A stretch of 64,000 bases of DNA. It comes from Leisingera sp. ANG1. GTDB lineage: Bacteria; Pseudomonadota; Alphaproteobacteria; Rhodobacterales; Rhodobacteraceae. A program made the position numbers and the translations under genes. How positions within the stretch are numbered: the stretch's first letter is position 1; each line of letters opens with the position of its first letter. This document shows positions 45,264 through 53,329 of this stretch, one piece after another. The notes under the pieces are model-generated. The model saw nothing but the letters and a program-made list of their open reading frames with translations. It did not search any database and had not been told where the DNA came from. The DNA lies in the NCBI RefSeq assembly GCF_000203975.2, contig NZ_AFCF02000008.1, positions 186,001 to 250,000 of the forward strand, read 5' to 3'.

Positions 45264-45339
45264 GCCCCTATAGCTCAGCTGGTAGAGCAACTGATTTGTA
45301 ATCAGTAGGTCCGCGGTTCGAGTCCGTGTGGGGGCACCA
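45264..45339 (+). tRNA. tRNA-Thr (TGT)
   Basis: 76 nt with encoded CCA. Acceptor GCCCCTA pairs with TGGGGGC (one G-U), discriminator A. Anticodon stem ACTGA/TCAGT with loop TTTGTAA, anticodon TGT at 45297-45299; T arm with TTCGAGT. Directly upstream of the change to accessory, AT-richer sequence. Confidence 0.96.
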
Positions 45340-45919: not shown

Positions 45920-46240
45920 ATGATTGTTAGGCCAGAATTGCGCTGCGAAACACAAAGCAGCGCAAGCGTCCGTTCTGCACCTAAAAGCCTGCTTTCCTCT
46001 CGTGGAGAGCGTGCGGCCATCCGCAAGGACGCCGCCACCGGGCATGTGGGCAATTCTCCGAAGGCAGACCTGAAATTCCAGCTTGCAAAGACGAAAACCG
46101 GCTTGTGGCAAGTTCTGGATGCCAGGTTTGCTTGCGGCGGAGTGTTTCAGGACCGCGTGTCTGCCACGCGGTTTATCCGCCAGGAACTTGCCGGCTGCAG
46201 GGCGCCCCTTGTGTACGTGCTGATTGGGTCCTCAGAATAG
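45920..46240 (+). CDS. Small hypothetical protein
   Basis: 106 residues. The first 45 residues look unstructured; the second half KFQLAKTKTGLWQVLDARFACGGVFQDRVSATRFIRQELAG has a plausible alpha-beta pattern resembling DUF2188-like small proteins, but I cannot name it. Start ATG 45920 has AGGGGGGG 8-15 nt upstream. It precedes the aminotransferase by 98 bp on the same strand, in the same apparent transcription unit. Could be a regulator or accessory protein of the cluster; a chance ORF is not excluded. Confidence 0.45.
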   Translation: MIVRPELRCETQSSASVRSAPKSLLSSRGERAAIRKDAATGHVGNSPKADLKFQLAKTKTGLWQVLDARFACGGVFQDRVSATRFIRQELAGCRAPLVYVLIGSSE

Positions 46241-46338: not shown

Positions 46339-47691
46339 ATGGAGAATACCATGGAACACGTGCAGCAATTCGGATCGGAAAATGTCCAATTTTCCGAAAC
46401 CGGACTATTTGCGAGATATGAATCCAATGTGCAATCCTATGCCAGGTCAATGCCTGCAGTTTTTGCAAAAGCCGTCGGCTGTGAAATCTGGAGCGAGGCG
46501 GGAGACCGCTATCTCGATTTTCTATCAGGTGCAGGATCACTGAATTACGGGCACAACAACCCCGTTCTGAAAACGGCACTGACCGAATATGTGAATTCGG
46601 ATGGCATCGTTCACAGCCTTGACCTGCACACAGAGGCCAAGGCGTTCTTTCTGGCGGAACTTGCGGACACTATCTTGCGGCCCCGCGGGCTGGATTATGT
46701 TACTCAGTTCACCGGGCCGACCGGCACAAACGCGGTGGAAGCGGCGTTGAAACTTGCCAGAAAAGTGACCGGCCGGACCACTGTTGTGCACTTTACCAAC
46801 AGCTTCCACGGTGTTTCGCTTGGCTCGCTTTCCATGACCGGCAATCAGACCCTGCGCAAGGCGGCCGGCGTGCCGCTGCAGGGGGCGGTTTGCATGCCAT
46901 TCGACGGCTATCTCGGGGACGGCGTGGATACGATCGCCATTCTGGACCGGATGCTTTGCGACAACTCCAGCGGCATCGACCTGCCAGCGGCGGTGCTTGT
47001 TGAAACCGTTCAAGGGGAAGGCGGCCTCAACCCCGCAAGCCGGGAGTGGCTGCGCAAGCTTGAGGCGCTGTGCAACCGCCTGGAGATCCTGCTTATTGTC
47101 GACGACATTCAGGCCGGCTGCGGACGCACCGGCACGTTCTTCAGCTTTGAGGCGGCGGGCATTGTTCCGGATATCGTCACGCTGTCGAAATCCCTCTCCG
47201 GCTATGGGCTGCCGCTGGCGATAGTCCTGCTGAAACGGGAACTGGATCAATGGGAGCCCGGTGAGCACAACGGAACCTTCCGCGGCAATAACCATGCCTT
47301 CGTGACCGCCGCTGCAACGCTGCGCCACTATTGGCGGACAAAGGACTTCTCCCGGGATGTCATGCGGAAGGCTGAATATCTCGAGGGACGCCTGCAGGGC
47401 ATCGTCGCCCGGTTCCCCGGGCATCTGGAGAGGGTCAAGGGGCGCGGGTTCATGCGGGGCATCAGCTTTGCGAACGCAGGCAAGGCCGGTCAGGTGCGCG
47501 ACCGCTGCTTCGCCCTTGGGCTGATCTGCGAGCGCTGCGGACCGGATGACGAAGTCGTCAAATGCATGTCGCCTCTGACGATCACCGACGGGGAACTGGC
47601 CGAGGGACTGGACATCCTGGAGCGCGCCACCGCTGATATTCTGGGTGCGCGAGGCAGATCCGGCCCGAAAATCCGCATCGCGAAGTCCTGA
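46339..47691 (+). CDS. EctB-like diaminobutyrate-2-oxoglutarate aminotransferase
   Basis: 450 residues, class III PLP aminotransferase closest to EctB/DABA aminotransferase, which turns aspartate-4-semialdehyde into L-2,4-diaminobutyrate with glutamate as donor. Seen: SYARSMPAVFAKAVG, FTGPTGTNAVEAALKLARK, HVSLGS-like NSFHGVSLGSLSMTGN, VETVQGEGGLNPAS, DDIQAGCGRTGTFFSFE, Schiff-base Lys284 in VTLSKSLSGYGLPLA, and EHNGTFRGNNHAFVT, a hallmark of EctB. ectA and ectC are not present, so the product is not destined for ectoine. The next gene is a single-module synthetase, so diaminobutyrate is its likely building block. Start taken as ATG 46339; ATG 46351 (MEHVQQ) is an alternative. Confidence 0.9.
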   Translation: MENTMEHVQQFGSENVQFSETGLFARYESNVQSYARSMPAVFAKAVGCEIWSEAGDRYLDFLSGAGSLNYGHNNPVLKTALTEYVNSDGIVHSLDLHTEAKAFFLAELADTILRPRGLDYVTQFTGPTGTNAVEAALKLARKVTGRTTVVHFTNSFHGVSLGSLSMTGNQTLRKAAGVPLQGAVCMPFDGYLGDGVDTIAILDRMLCDNSSGIDLPAAVLVETVQGEGGLNPASREWLRKLEALCNRLEILLIVDDIQAGCGRTGTFFSFEAAGIVPDIVTLSKSLSGYGLPLAIVLLKRELDQWEPGEHNGTFRGNNHAFVTAAATLRHYWRTKDFSRDVMRKAEYLEGRLQGIVARFPGHLERVKGRGFMRGISFANAGKAGQVRDRCFALGLICERCGPDDEVVKCMSPLTITDGELAEGLDILERATADILGARGRSGPKIRIAKS

Positions 47692-47757
47692 CCCGGCAAC
47701 TGTGCATCAGCTTTCCTAACCGCTGGACAGCGCTGTTGAGGGACGTTTGCATGAGAA

Positions 47758-47836
47758 TTCCGGCTCAAAGTCTGCCGTTCTGCGACCCTTGAGCCGGAAA
47801 GGTTGGGAAGGGGGGGCACAGTTTTCCTTCCCAACC
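47758..47836. repeat. Two consecutive perfect 11-bp inverted repeats
   Basis: TTCCGGCTCAA/TTGAGCCGGAA (47758-47768 with 47789-47799, 20-nt loop) and GGTTGGGAAGG/CCTTCCCAACC (47801-47811 with 47826-47836, 14-nt loop) lie side by side in the 294-bp gap between the aminotransferase and the synthetase. No T-run follows. They may be a structured RNA leader controlling the synthetase, or the remnant of a small mobile element. Confidence 0.6.
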
Positions 47837-47985
47837 GGACTGCGGGCACCGCATTTGCGAGCCTGCAGCCGCATCCATCCACGCAAACCCCGCCAGGGCG
47901 ACGGAAAGCACAGAGCACAGCACCACCACGCAACGACGCCTGAACAGCCCGCGCTGCACGGCGTTCCGGCCAATGGAGCTCAAAA

Positions 47986-50900
47986 GTGCTTACGTGTCAT
48001 TCAGCAGTGAACTCTGTCCGCTGGCAGCCCGGTGAACGGCTGCACCACCTGTTCGAAAGACGCTGCGATGAATTCGAGGCCTCCGGCGACAGTGACCACC
48101 TTGCAGTCATTTCCAGGGACGCCACGCTGACCTTCCGGGATTTGGACAACTGTGCCAATCAGCTGGCCCGCTACCTGCTGTCAAACGGGCTGGGACCGGG
48201 CAACCGCATTGGCCTGATGTTCGACAAATCCGCGGCATCCTATACCGCCCTTCTGGCGGTGCAGAAGATACACGCCGCATATGTGCCGCTGGATGAAGGT
48301 TTCCCCCGCGAGCGCATAGCCTTCATTCTGGAAGACGCGGGCGTCGACGCGGTTCTTTCGCTTGAGCGGTATGCCGGCTGCTTTAGCGGAATTGATCTTC
48401 CCGCACATTTTCTGGACTTCGCTGCGCCGCAAATCGAAGCCTGCAGCACGGCCCGGCTGAGCCCCGCTGAACTGACAGGCAAAGGCGACGAGGTTGCCTA
48501 TCTCATCTACACGTCAGGCACGACAGGGAAGCCGAAGGGCGTCGTGATTGAACAGGCGAGTATCTGCAATTTTGTGCGGGTCGCAGCCGAGACCTATGGC
48601 TACCGGCCCGACGACCGGGTGTATCAGGGCATGACGATTGCGTTCGACTTTTCCGTCGAAGAGCTTTGGGTGCCGCTATTGGCCGGGGCGGCACTTGTTC
48701 CCACCAAGCAGGGAGTGAGTCTGGTCGGAGAAGAACTGGCAGATTTTCTGCGCCGGCGCCAGGTCACTGCGATGTGCTGCGTGCCGACGCTGCTGGCGAC
48801 ATTGGAAGAAGAATTGCCAGACCTGCGGCTGCTGCTTGTTTCGGGAGAGGCATGTCCGCAAGGCCTGATCTCTCGCTGGCACCGGGATGGCCGCACGATC
48901 CTGAATGCCTATGGACCAACGGAAGCGACCGTTACATGCACCATAACTGAACTGCACCCGGACAAGCCGGTCACCATCGGCGGCCCGCTGCCCAGTTATT
49001 CGATTGCCATCCTCGACCCGGACGAGGACACCGAGCTGGCAGATGGCGAGCTGGGGGAAATAGCCGTCGCAGGCGTTGGCTTGGCCGCCGGCTATCTCAA
49101 CCGTCCGAATCTGACCGCCAGGAAATTTGTTCCCGATTGCCTGAACGGCCCCAACAACCCTTCCCGCCGGCTTTACCGCACGGGCGATCTGGGCCGTATC
49201 AACGCCGATGGCGAAATCGAATTTCACGGCCGGATAGACACCCAGGTCAAACTGCGGGGGTACCGTATCGAGCTGACGGAAATCGAGTCGGTGCTGCTTG
49301 AACTTCCTGAAATCTCTCAAGCCGTCGTCGACACCTGGGAAACCGAACCCGGCACGCGGGAGCTGGTTGCCTACTACGCCCTTAACCAAGGTGTTGCAGC
49401 GCTGGACAAGGAAACCGTCGCCCGGAAGCTGAAGGAGCGGCTGCCGGCCTATATGATCCCTTCATATCTGGAGGAGCTGAAACACATTCCAATGACCGTC
49501 AACAACAAGGCGGACCGGAAGCAGCTGCCGGCCCCGGCCGGGCCGCGATTCATTGTCAGCAGCAAGAATGCGGTTGCCCTGCAGGGCGAAGTGGAGGAAT
49601 TGCTCGCCGGGCAGCTTTACCCGATCCTGGATGTTGAACAGATTTCGGCGGACGACCATTTTTTTGATGATCTTGGAGCCCATTCCCTGCTGATGGCGCG
49701 CTATTGCGCGGCACTGCGCAAATGCCCCGAGCTGCCGAGCATCTCGATGCGCGATATCTACCTTAACCCGACAATCCGTAAGCTGGGCGATTTTGCAAAG
49801 GCCGCAGCACCTGCCCCGCAGGTCCGCAAACCGCCGCAGGCGCCCAAACCCGCACACATCGCAAGCGACCGCGCGTACCTTCTTTGCGGAGCTGCGCAAG
49901 CCGCCTGGATGATGGCCTATGGGCTGGCGGGCTTGTGGCTGATTGTCAAATCCATTGAATGGGCGCTGTCGGGCAGCCCCACCGCCGTAGAGGCGGGCGG
50001 GCGCATGATGCTCGCCGGTTTTGGTCTGTTTGTGCTGTTCAGCCTGCTACCGATTGCCGCGAAATGGACGCTGATCGGCCGTTGGAAGCCAGGGCGTTTT
50101 CCGATTTGGAGCATGGCGTATTTCCGGTTCTGGCTGGTCAAGGGACTGGTGCGCAGCGCTCCGCCGGCCCTGCTCGCCGGCACGCCGGTCTACAATGTCT
50201 ATTTGCGCGCCCTTGGTGCCAGGATCGGACGCGGCACTGTTATCCACTCCGCCACGCCGGTCTGTACCGATCTGCTGTCAATCGGCAGCAACACAATCCT
50301 GCGCCGCGAAACGGTTGCACTTGGTTACCAGGCCGAAGCCGGCTTCATCGAGACCGGGCCAGTCACAATCGGAGATGATGTGTTCATCGGCGAGGCCAGC
50401 ATTCTTGAAATCGGCTCGTCAATGGAAGACGGAACCCAGCTTGGCCACGCGTCGAGCCTGGAAAGGGATCAAGTTGCACTTTCCGGCAAGCGCTATCACG
50501 GCACCCCTGCTGTCGAAACAAATGATGACTATTGCAGGATCGAACCGCGCCGCTGCAGCGAACTGCGCCGGTGGGCCTATACGCTCGGCGGACTGACCTT
50601 CGGCTTCCTGATGTTAGGGCTGATGTCCAGCGTCTTGGGCGCGGTCATTCTGGGCGGTCATGTGAATGAAATCGCCGCTGTCACTGACCTGCGGGAGATG
50701 GCAATCCTCGCCGTGCAAGTCACGCTTGTCCTTTACCTCGTGGCCTTTCCTGCCGGGCTTCTGTTCATCGGTATCATGCCCCGCATTGCACATAAATTCG
50801 TGGAGCCCGGACGGGTCTATACGCTGTATGGTTTTCACTATTTCATGCACGGCCTTGTTGCCCGCTGGTCGAATTCGCGCTTCTACAATCTGATTTTCGG

Positions 50901-52071
50901 CGACAGCTCGGCAATTGTCTATTACCTGCGGTATGTCGGCTACAACCTGAACAAGGTGGTGCAGACCGGGTCGAATTTCGGGATCAATCACCGCCACACC
51001 GATCCGTTCCTTTGCGACATTGGCAGCGGAACAATGGTTTCGGACGGGCTGTCCATGATCAACACAGAGTATTCGGCCTCGTCCTTCCGCGTGCTGCCCG
51101 TGAAGATCGGTGCGCAGAACTATCTGGGCAACAACATCCACTATCCTGCCGGCGGGCGTACGGGTGAAAACTGCCTGATCGGGACCAAAACGATGATACC
51201 TGTCGAAGGACCGGTATTGGAGAATACAGGCCTTTTGGGTTCACCCCCGTTTGAGATTCCCAGGGCCGTGCAGCGTGACACAGAGATGGCAAGCCAACTT
51301 GAAGATGCAGCCCGTGCCGGCCGGCTAAAGGAGAAGAATTATCACAACCTGATCACGGCCCTGATCTATCAGGCAGCTATGCTTGTGCTTGTCTGTATCA
51401 TGCTGTTCTCGGCTCAAATCGCCTGGCAGGGCTATCTTGCGGTTGGTTTTCCGGCCTTTGCAGTCCTGGCCATTTGCCTGAGCTTCTTCACCATCGGCTA
51501 TTTTGTCTTCTGCGAACGGGCCAGTCTTGCTTTCGGCAGGCTGAAACCCCGTCAGGTGATCGTGCTTGATGATTATTTCTGGTCGCACGAACGGCATTGG
51601 AAAATGTCCGAACATCCAGTCCCTGCCCTATTTGCAGGAACGCCAATGCGCGGTCTCCTTGGCCGCCTGCTGGGCATGCGTATCGGCCGCAAGCTGTTTG
51701 ATGATGGCGCCCAGTTCGTGGAACGAACACTTATCAGCATCGGCGACAATGCAACTCTTAACTACAGGGCGACGCTGCAGTGCCACTCCCTGGAGGAAGG
51801 CGTGTTCAAATCGGACCGCATCTCAGTGGGCAGCGGGGCCACAGTAAGCGTTGGCGGCTTTGTCCATTACGGTGCCAGCGTTGGTGACAAGGCGGTCTTG
51901 GGAGCCAACGCCTTCCTTATGAAAGGTGAAGAAGTCGGTGCAGGCGATGTGTGGTGCGGCAACCCGGCCTGCCCGCCGCCGCATACCGAAGCAGAAAGCG
52001 CACTGAACTTCGGCCACCGCGACGCAGAGGTGCGAGTAAACGCTTGCCAGCAGCCGCTTTGTGCCGAATGA
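47986..52071 (+). CDS. Pls/PosA-type single-module nonribosomal peptide synthetase (candidate poly-diaminobutyrate synthetase)
   Basis: 1361 residues. Layout: adenylation domain about 30-510 (A3 YTSGTTGKPKG near 174, NAYGPTE, YRTGDLGR, A10 NNKADRK), carrier domain about 525-605 (LGAHSLL, phosphopantetheine Ser567), then a membrane part with six hydrophobic segments (about 630-655, 672-696, 863-890, 900-930, 1118-1140, 1148-1175) separating three soluble domains with hexapeptide-like repeats. This matches epsilon-poly-lysine synthetase Pls and its relatives (poly-ornithine PosA), which polymerise one basic amino acid through side-chain amides with no condensation domain. Read-off pocket residues: D-F-E-C-L-S-A-V-T-K; the Glu at the third site suits a basic side chain. 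Start GTG 47986 with GGAG 7 nt upstream. Confidence 0.85.
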   Translation: MLTCHSAVNSVRWQPGERLHHLFERRCDEFEASGDSDHLAVISRDATLTFRDLDNCANQLARYLLSNGLGPGNRIGLMFDKSAASYTALLAVQKIHAAYVPLDEGFPRERIAFILEDAGVDAVLSLERYAGCFSGIDLPAHFLDFAAPQIEACSTARLSPAELTGKGDEVAYLIYTSGTTGKPKGVVIEQASICNFVRVAAETYGYRPDDRVYQGMTIAFDFSVEELWVPLLAGAALVPTKQGVSLVGEELADFLRRRQVTAMCCVPTLLATLEEELPDLRLLLVSGEACPQGLISRWHRDGRTILNAYGPTEATVTCTITELHPDKPVTIGGPLPSYSIAILDPDEDTELADGELGEIAVAGVGLAAGYLNRPNLTARKFVPDCLNGPNNPSRRLYRTGDLGRINADGEIEFHGRIDTQVKLRGYRIELTEIESVLLELPEISQAVVDTWETEPGTRELVAYYALNQGVAALDKETVARKLKERLPAYMIPSYLEELKHIPMTVNNKADRKQLPAPAGPRFIVSSKNAVALQGEVEELLAGQLYPILDVEQISADDHFFDDLGAHSLLMARYCAALRKCPELPSISMRDIYLNPTIRKLGDFAKAAAPAPQVRKPPQAPKPAHIASDRAYLLCGAAQAAWMMAYGLAGLWLIVKSIEWALSGSPTAVEAGGRMMLAGFGLFVLFSLLPIAAKWTLIGRWKPGRFPIWSMAYFRFWLVKGLVRSAPPALLAGTPVYNVYLRALGARIGRGTVIHSATPVCTDLLSIGSNTILRRETVALGYQAEAGFIETGPVTIGDDVFIGEASILEIGSSMEDGTQLGHASSLERDQVALSGKRYHGTPAVETNDDYCRIEPRRCSELRRWAYTLGGLTFGFLMLGLMSSVLGAVILGGHVNEIAAVTDLREMAILAVQVTLVLYLVAFPAGLLFIGIMPRIAHKFVEPGRVYTLYGFHYFMHGLVARWSNSRFYNLIFGDSSAIVYYLRYVGYNLNKVVQTGSNFGINHRHTDPFLCDIGSGTMVSDGLSMINTEYSASSFRVLPVKIGAQNYLGNNIHYPAGGRTGENCLIGTKTMIPVEGPVLENTGLLGSPPFEIPRAVQRDTEMASQLEDAARAGRLKEKNYHNLITALIYQAAMLVLVCIMLFSAQIAWQGYLAVGFPAFAVLAICLSFFTIGYFVFCERASLAFGRLKPRQVIVLDDYFWSHERHWKMSEHPVPALFAGTPMRGLLGRLLGMRIGRKLFDDGAQFVERTLISIGDNATLNYRATLQCHSLEEGVFKSDRISVGSGATVSVGGFVHYGASVGDKAVLGANAFLMKGEEVGAGDVWCGNPACPPPHTEAESALNFGHRDAEVRVNACQQPLCAE

Positions 52072-52204
52072 TTCAACCGGGCATTGCTTGCCCGCCGTGT
52101 TGCAGACGGCAATTGAGTGCGTCATGTTCGACCGGCAGGGATGCTCTGCTTTGGGCAGTATCTTGAGCACGGACCGGGCAGGACCTCAGGAGGACCGCAA
52201 GGAA

Positions 52205-53329
52205 ATGAAATCCATTGTTGTGACATGCGCGGCGTGCGCCTTGGCGCTTGCGGTGCCTGCGGGTGGCTGGGCCGAAGAAAACCGTCTGGTTCTTCTGGAT
52301 GGAGCAGACGGGCCAGAAGACGAAAGCTATGATCCAGCCGCGCCCTTTCTGGCTGAACTGACATTGGAATATCTCCACAACGACAGTGATGATCCGGACG
52401 ATCAGGAAGACGAATACACAGCTACGCTGGATCTCGAATTTTACTTGAACGAGAACGTCTTGCTGGTTGGCACCTTGCTTGGCACATCGGTGAAAGGTGA
52501 GGGAACATTTCCGAACGACTACGATTTCTATTTTGAAGAGTTGTACCTGAATGCAGAGATTGACAGCGTTGGTGTCTTCGGCGGCAAGTTCAACCCGGTG
52601 TTCGGAATAGGTTTTGATGACGTGGCCGGAGAGCTCTACGGTGCGGGCTATCACGACGATTATGAACTGACTGAGCGGCTTGGAGCAGGTGTCTACTATT
52701 CCTTTGAGGATGCTTCGGGCGGTGAACACACCCTAGGCGCCAGCGCCTTTCAGCTGGATACCAGCTTCCTCGCCAAGAGCTTTTTGCGCGGTGAGCGGCT
52801 TGCGTCCCGTGCCGACGGCGGGCTGAGCAACACTGGCGGCCTGAATTCCTACAACATCTGGCTGGAAGGCGAAGATGCCTTTGGCATCGAGGATTCCCGC
52901 TACAACATCACTTACCGCTCGCAAGAGGGCGGGCTTCCGGGAGAGGCAACGGAAACCGGCTTTGCCGCTGGCGCCAGCAAGCTGTTCGAGCTTGCCAACG
53001 GCAATGAGCTGGAAGTGTTCGCCGAACTGGTCAGCCTGGACAACTCGCAAGACGACGGCGTGTCCTTTGATCAGGAAACCTTGATGGCGAACGCCGCATA
53101 TTATTTCGGCGCCGACTGGGTCGCCACACTTGGCGGCGGCGTGCAGGACATCGGCAACAGCAGCGACACAACCGAAATTGCCAATGGCAGCAACCGCTTT
53201 GCCACCGCGTCTGTGGGCAAGACTTTTTTTGACAGCCTGTATGTGGAGCTGGCATACAAACGCGAAAAGACGAGCGGCAGCTACGAAAACTCCGCTGGCG
53301 TTTTGTTCTCCTATAGCGTTGATTTTTAA
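52205..53329 (+). CDS. Outer-membrane beta-barrel protein of the synthetase cluster
   Basis: 374 residues. Signal peptide MKSIVVTCAACALALAVPAGGWAEEN, then a run of amphipathic beta strands with many Tyr/Phe/Gly and acidic loops (DSDDPDDQEDEY), ending in Phe (FSYSVDF), the usual C-terminal signature of outer-membrane barrels. The Asp/Glu-rich surface is notable next to a proposed cationic polymer. Resembles LbtU-like porin families; exact family uncertain. Start ATG 52205 has AAGGA and AGGAGG upstream; 133 bp after the synthetase stop on the same strand, so likely cotranscribed. Proposed role: polymer export, retention at the surface, or self-protection (inference). Confidence 0.75.
   Translation: MKSIVVTCAACALALAVPAGGWAEENRLVLLDGADGPEDESYDPAAPFLAELTLEYLHNDSDDPDDQEDEYTATLDLEFYLNENVLLVGTLLGTSVKGEGTFPNDYDFYFEELYLNAEIDSVGVFGGKFNPVFGIGFDDVAGELYGAGYHDDYELTERLGAGVYYSFEDASGGEHTLGASAFQLDTSFLAKSFLRGERLASRADGGLSNTGGLNSYNIWLEGEDAFGIEDSRYNITYRSQEGGLPGEATETGFAAGASKLFELANGNELEVFAELVSLDNSQDDGVSFDQETLMANAAYYFGADWVATLGGGVQDIGNSSDTTEIANGSNRFATASVGKTFFDSLYVELAYKREKTSGSYENSAGVLFSYSVDF

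Follow-up and report, generated by a model that had tools for sequence, protein, structure and literature searches.

A candidate poly-diaminobutyrate pathway in Leisingera sp. ANG1, encoded by an EctB-type transaminase gene and an adjacent Pls/PosA-family synthetase gene

We analysed 64,000 nucleotides of Leisingera sp. ANG1 (contig NZ_AFCF02000008.1, positions 186,001 to 250,000; hereafter the window), in which three consecutive forward-strand genes had been proposed, from the sequence alone, to make L-2,4-diaminobutyrate (Dab) and to polymerise it. These are a transaminase gene (46339..47691), a large synthetase gene (47986..52071) and a gene for a secreted-looking acidic protein (52205..53329). 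In that original prediction the acidic protein was an outer-membrane barrel belonging to the pathway. The proposal is supported for the first two genes by the family profile of the synthetase, its substrate pocket and its EctB neighbour; the barrel as a part of the pathway is not supported.

The first gene encodes a 450-residue EctB-type L-2,4-diaminobutyrate–2-oxoglutarate transaminase, as had been predicted. It clears the curated thresholds of NF006733 (644 against 438 bits), TIGR02407 ectB (628 against 552 bits) and TIGR00709 (452 against 402 bits), and its nearest solved structures are the diaminobutyrate transaminases 6rl5 and 9s1q, of which 6rl5, a diaminobutyrate–2-oxoglutarate transaminase, is the best PDB match (E = 1.1e-155). 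Lys284, a lysine in 38 of 38 aligned rows, would be the pyridoxal phosphate-binding residue, judging from the family, and the protein retains 126 of the 149 columns that are invariant across 28 ectoine-labelled EctBs. It is identical at 389 of 450 aligned residues to the EctB of the other Leisingera genome that carries the pair (G001).

The second gene encodes a 1361-residue, single-module homopolymer synthetase of the Pls/PosA family. A Pfam profile search placed the core of its adenylation (A) domain at residues 32–371 (48079..49098); this is followed by a carrier domain (PF00550; residues 538–603, 49597..49794), with Ser567 in an LGAHSL motif, and by a C-terminal membrane-bound polymerisation domain (residues 634–1328, 49885..51969). 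The usual A-domain motifs are present, and the A domain and Ser567 carrier of the original prediction were both recovered. At E ≤ 0.001 the only Pfam matches were AMP-binding, AMP-binding_C, PP-binding and Hexapep_2, with no Pfam match in the synthetase to a condensation or thioesterase domain. The C-terminal part, whose family assignment had been named as a point on which the prediction could fail, matched TIGR02353 (NRPS_term_dom, ‘Pls/PosA family’) strongly, with 629 bits against a cut-off of 423 and over profile positions 2–695 of 695. It contains hydrophobic segments, as predicted, but a 19-residue hydropathy scan resolved five separate stretches above 1.6 (around residues 670–697, 867–890, 912–930, 1122–1140 and 1145–1176) rather than six; members of the family are expected to have three transmembrane helix pairs flanking three soluble parts. 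Among solved structures it has no close relative and gave weak, hexapeptide-type matches (best E = 0.0008), consistent with the left-handed beta-helices predicted for this domain (PMC10522769). The closest named relative is Leisingera daeponensis DP1N14-2 (L029; 86% identity in the best synthetase segment), and 1145 of 1344 aligned residues of the synthetase are identical to the protein of the other Leisingera genome. The host genome has two genes of the phosphopantetheinyl transferase family, both away from the cluster; in four other loci such a gene lies directly or closely behind the synthetase (L030:5130-5867, L051:12423-13076, L053:11927-12592 and L071:11909-12466).

Pocket residues were read from a MAFFT alignment at the Stachelhaus positions, which we take to be those of the 1AMU numbering. 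In the window they are D221, F222, E225, C264, L284, S286, A308, V316 and T317, giving DFECLSAVT. When applied to other loci, the same extraction returned DMEHNGTVS, which agrees with the published PosA residues (D217, M218, E221, H260, N280, T304, V312 and S313), and DSECYGGVT, which is the published Bdellovibrionales code minus its last letter (PMC10522769). In PosA the two amino groups are held by the pocket Asp and Glu; the residue at position 2 has been proposed to set chain length, with Ala for Lys, Met for Orn, and Phe for the synthetases of poly-diaminopropionate (PDAP) and poly-diaminobutyrate (PDAB) (PMC10522769). The window A domain keeps Asp at position 1 and Glu at position 3, with Phe at position 2. 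This combination is common to PDAP synthetases and is not in itself diagnostic of Dab. All nine letters are the same in two Streptomyces synthetases, L058 and L067.

We compared pocket and neighbourhood across 54 synthetase loci, comprising the window, L030, L061 (from G001), 19 plasmid loci hand-picked from 40 listed of 500 plasmid records, and matches from samples of the host's family, class and phylum, with one locus per matched genome. A second, partial match in G935 and L212 (for G462) were left out, as were L031-L042, in which the match was mainly to the A domain. The pocket was readable in 51 loci (all except L059, L060 and L092). The stretches fetched vary in length, L098 ending within the synthetase and L061 1.3 kb beyond it, and an EctB/Dat gene was scored as present at a phmmer score above 150 bits in one comparison and above 120 bits in another. 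A pocket of the form DFEC(L/V/I)S(A/V)VT was accompanied by an adjacent EctB/Dat gene in 9 of 11 loci, as against 0 of 40 for other pockets in the stretches fetched (Fisher p = 1.8e-8, n = 51 family members, uncorrected for relatedness). EctB lies upstream in the window, L061, L030, L050, L066, L063 and L064, so that all seven alphaproteobacterial loci with this pocket type have a same-strand EctB gene directly before the synthetase; in L030, where EctB is cut by the contig end, the two frames overlap by 7 bases. The EctB/Dat gene lies downstream in L058, annotated in the order synthetase, diaminobutyrate transaminase, aspartate kinase, and in L067, where an EctB/Dat-like open reading frame (ORF) follows the synthetase. 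The genes shown beside pldA and pddA, which encode L- and D-Dab synthetases, likewise include dat and ask (PMC8117764). Further plasmid searches with EctB (60 listed of 137 records) and with the C-terminal domain (21 records, none from Leisingera) left this picture unchanged. The comparison of pocket residues, called for in the original prediction, thus points to Dab, through gene context rather than through a characterised Dab synthetase. On a tree of 30 synthetases, 4 changes were counted for pocket type and 4 for the presence of an EctB neighbour, and of 4 independent pairs an average of 2.7 agree, 0 oppose and 1.3 show no difference.

These results suggest a rule, that a DFEC(L/V/I)S(A/V)VT pocket accompanies an EctB/Dat neighbour. 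Such a rule could tell Dab synthetases from the other Phe-containing members, which have been called difficult to distinguish (PMC10522769). Two other kinds of family member were encountered in the survey. Ten synthetases have a DFEALGTVT pocket (L049, L051, L053, L054, L191-L194, L197 and L199) and no EctB neighbour in the fetched stretch; the four that are plasmid-borne are sister to the branch containing the window. In L092 the TIGR02353 domain (G462:C2:562146-564230) lies in a 3474-residue frame, compared with the usual 1300–1400 residues, and the protein is possibly multi-module.

The original prediction had remarked on the absence of ectC. This holds for the whole 4.59 Mb host assembly, in which a profile search gave no match to ectoine synthase (PF06339), while 5 of 5 other genomes searched alongside were matched. 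An ectoine synthase is present in G001, the second Leisingera genome to carry the pair. The next-best EctB-like protein of the host is just 36% identical to that of the window. Across the family, EctB scored above cut-off in 30 of 120 genomes; in the 30 EctB loci read, the synthetase follows in 3 and an EctC-like start is found among the listed ORFs in 22. Two genomes (G068 and G083) have a second EctB beside an ectoine synthase, and the synthetase-linked EctB is therefore a separate copy. In the EctB tree the 28 ectoine-labelled Rhodobacteraceae EctBs form a branch that, with moderate support (89/75), excludes the synthetase-linked proteins. The latter are not recovered as one clade, and the tree fits a single or a multiple origin. 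The ectoine label was given to 22 rows with an EctC-like start (MIVRD...; L100 and L101 of these backed by PF06339), to L107, L108, L116 and L127, which have no such start among the listed ORFs, and to the second copies L131 and L132, which are adjacent to PF06339 matches; the EctBs read did not include one more from G111. An EctB gene by itself, then, does not imply ectoine. In one Rhodobacteraceae locus (L128) EctB is followed by an ORF that starts like a lysine/ornithine monooxygenase, as in siderophore pathways, a likeness judged by eye that would suggest a Dab siderophore.

We propose, with a probability of roughly 0.8, that the EctB–synthetase pair forms Dab and then polymerises it, the likely product being gamma-poly-L-Dab. 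The EctB-type transaminase would supply the synthetase by converting aspartate semialdehyde and glutamate to Dab. The A domain would then adenylate Dab and load it onto the phosphopantetheine arm carried by Ser567. Joining the gamma-amine of one Dab to the carboxyl of the next would fall to the C-terminal membrane domain. The expected product is a short cationic gamma-poly-Dab at the cell envelope, probably in the L configuration because of the stereochemistry of the EctB product and because no epimerase was seen among the neighbours tested. Like the substrate, the linkage and the stereochemistry, export of the polymer and any antimicrobial or biofilm role it may have are what we infer from sequence.

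Several observations weigh against this proposal. PDAP and PDAB synthetases share the Phe at position 2 and are hard to separate by alignment (PMC10522769). In two loci with the pocket, L052 (on a Paenarthrobacter plasmid) and L068 (Streptomyces), the stretch fetched shows no EctB/Dat gene, and the sign test on independent pairs cannot become significant (p = 0.25 at best). The legend that places dat and ask in PMC8117764 is silent on whether they flank the L- or the D-Dab synthetase, and the context therefore argues for Dab and not for its handedness. The structure prediction for the C-terminal domain is unusable (mean predicted confidence, pLDDT, of 33). Finally, a gap of 294 bases separates the EctB and synthetase genes, so that cotranscription cannot be assumed.

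The likeliest alternative, although we consider it improbable, is that the synthetase polymerises another diamino acid, either 2,3-diaminopropionate or D-Dab formed by racemisation; L-Dab would then be no more than a side substrate or a precursor. Besides the shared Phe, this would fit the observations that the A domain of a PDAP synthetase is active, if more weakly, with L-Dab (PMC4668381) and that poly-D-Dab exists, made by way of the DapF-like racemase PddB (PMC8225329). Against this, each of the 7 alphaproteobacterial loci that have such a pocket carries an adjacent EctB gene. Moreover, no DapF-like Pfam match was found among the cluster neighbours tested, which were some of the ORFs and were not accompanied by a genome-wide DapF search, and there is no epimerase among the annotated neighbours of L058.

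A second alternative, compatible with our reading of the genes themselves, is that the cluster does encode a poly-Dab pathway but, as an acquired element now silent or in decay, yields no product in this strain. It derives from the position of the pair at the edge of a variable region, the left end of which is marked by a forward-strand tRNA-Thr (TGT) gene at 45264..45339 (located with ARAGORN). The pair starts 1 kb past this gene in the window and 1.6 kb past it in L061; on the L. daeponensis contig, too, the cluster is preceded by this tRNA gene. In two congeners (G004 and G011), DNA equivalent to position 76475 onward, in window numbering, resumes 177 and 269 bases past the tRNA match, and about 31 kb is therefore extra here, extending beyond the window end. 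This region is visibly missing in these 2 of the 7 congeners compared; the remaining five (G002, G003, G006, G008 and G010) had no match of more than 100 bases after the tRNA-Thr and are therefore neutral. The extra stretch has a GC content of 0.577, as against 0.623 beyond it; a repeat of the tRNA end was sought as the right boundary of an island and was not found. In L. daeponensis DP1N14-2 the cluster is flanked on the side of the tRNA gene by a DUF6538 ORF and, beyond the synthetase, by an ORF with an insertion sequence (IS)-type integrase core. The pair was probably acquired laterally beside the tRNA-Thr gene. Decay or silence nevertheless seems to us distinctly unlikely, more so than a different diamino acid, since both genes are open, their core motifs are present and the proteins are well matched between the two Leisingera, at the identities given above.

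That EctB makes Dab for some other use, such as a siderophore (as perhaps in L128) or ectoine, whose pathway genes may occur singly (13% of 457 genomes have a solitary ectC; PMC5924519), the synthetase being an unrelated neighbour, is very improbable, given the lack of an ectoine synthase match in the host and the recurrence of EctB–synthetase adjacency across several genera, with overlapping frames in L030.

For the third gene, ATG 52205, which has an AGGAGG in front of it, is a likelier start than GTG 52061. Its product combines a signal-like N-terminus and a C-terminal Phe with a very acidic mature part (isoelectric point 4.05, with 67 Asp plus Glu and 16 Lys plus Arg), from which an outer-membrane barrel is plausible. 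It matched no Pfam or NCBIfam family, the sole PDB match has an E-value of 0.85, and its single-sequence fold prediction is unusable (pLDDT 33). Matches occur in 8 of 41 genomes, namely its own, G005 and G020 (65–66% identity) and five with weaker matches, and none was found beside the other synthetases examined at thresholds of 50–60 bits or E = 1e-5. A role for the barrel as exporter or other pathway component is unsupported: G005 and G020 carry it without the synthetase, and G001 has the synthetase without a match to it, the G001 contig running into an IS-type ORF after the synthetase. We therefore treat the third gene as a neighbour of the EctB–synthetase pair.

Directly 5′ of ectB lies a small ORF (45920-46240; 106 residues) with no Pfam match. 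It is kept in L. daeponensis, with 78 of 106 aligned residues identical and the C-terminal half almost unchanged. Four more ORFs of the variable stretch, when tested, proved to be epimerases and glycosyltransferases. Outside the window, a further A-domain gene (G000:C19:583075-586643; a 1559-residue frame) forms a second locus of nonribosomal peptide synthetase type in the genome; a gene of the phosphopantetheinyl transferase family follows about 1 kb later.

The synthetase is rare among relatives. Genomes scoring above the cut-off numbered 3 among 61 relatives, 3 among the 394 sampled from the family, 10 among 385 sampled from the class and 26 among 398 from the phylum; within the genus it was found in 2 of 21 genomes. 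Polymers of this kind have so far been demonstrated mainly in actinobacteria, and the synthetases described are those for poly-Lys, poly-diaminopropionate, L- and D-poly-Dab, poly-beta-Lys and poly-Orn. The original prediction had held such a pathway in a marine alphaproteobacterium to be notable; the family counts agree with this, but Pls-like synthetases in Proteobacteria, and predicted PDAP/PDAB-like members in many organisms, have already been reported (PMC10522769). In the literature searched, which mostly excluded subscription papers and supplements, we found no report of an EctB-fed poly-Dab synthetase or of this pathway in Rhodobacteraceae. With its precursor gene next to the synthetase, the locus would allow a cationic homopolymer pathway to be tested in a marine alphaproteobacterium. 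More speculatively, Alphaproteobacteria might have a poly-Dab pathway lineage of their own that draws on a dedicated EctB, separate from those for ectoine, and that has travelled on plasmids and tRNA-linked islands. In Leisingera, where the pair lies beside surface-polysaccharide genes, the polycation could then be an envelope or biofilm component and not only a secreted antimicrobial.

Among known systems, the ectoine-pathway EctBs belong to the same reaction family as the window EctB, as its TIGR02407 score reflects, and differ in the respects described above, the lack of an ectoine synthase in the host and the position outside the ectoine branch. The epsilon-poly-L-lysine synthetase Pls of Streptomyces albulus has the architecture seen in the window, whose A domain matches the solved chain 7wew. 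Pls differs in two ways: position 2 of its pocket is Ala (PMC10522769), and its gene is accompanied by that of a peptidase (PMC8117764). No self-protection peptidase was seen among the window neighbours tested with Pfam. S41 peptidase genes do lie near the EctB-linked synthetases of Skermanella (L050 and L066) and of a Hyphomicrobiaceae metagenome-assembled genome (L030), those of L066 and L030 being identical at 129 of 426 aligned residues, and could possibly serve in self-protection by cleaving the polymer. PosA, the delta-poly-L-ornithine synthetase of Acinetobacter baumannii, shares with the window a Gram-negative host, the order of A, carrier and terminal domains, and the pocket Asp and Glu, but at the positions that are Phe, Cys, Leu, Ala and Thr in the window it has Met, His, Asn, Thr and Ser (PMC10522769). 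The nearest parallel in gene content is with the actinobacterial gamma-poly-Dab systems (PldA and PddA, with dat and ask, compared by description), which likewise combine a Pls-type synthetase with a Dab transaminase, and with Streptomyces L058 and L067, in which the DFECLSAVT pocket has a Dat-type gene next door. In the window, by contrast, the transaminase is EctB-type and upstream, there is no adjacent aspartate kinase, and the C-terminal domain is distant from that of L058 (184 bits, as against 1403 bits to L061). The type of pathway is thus already known; what differs from the Streptomyces case is the type of precursor gene that stands beside the synthetase.

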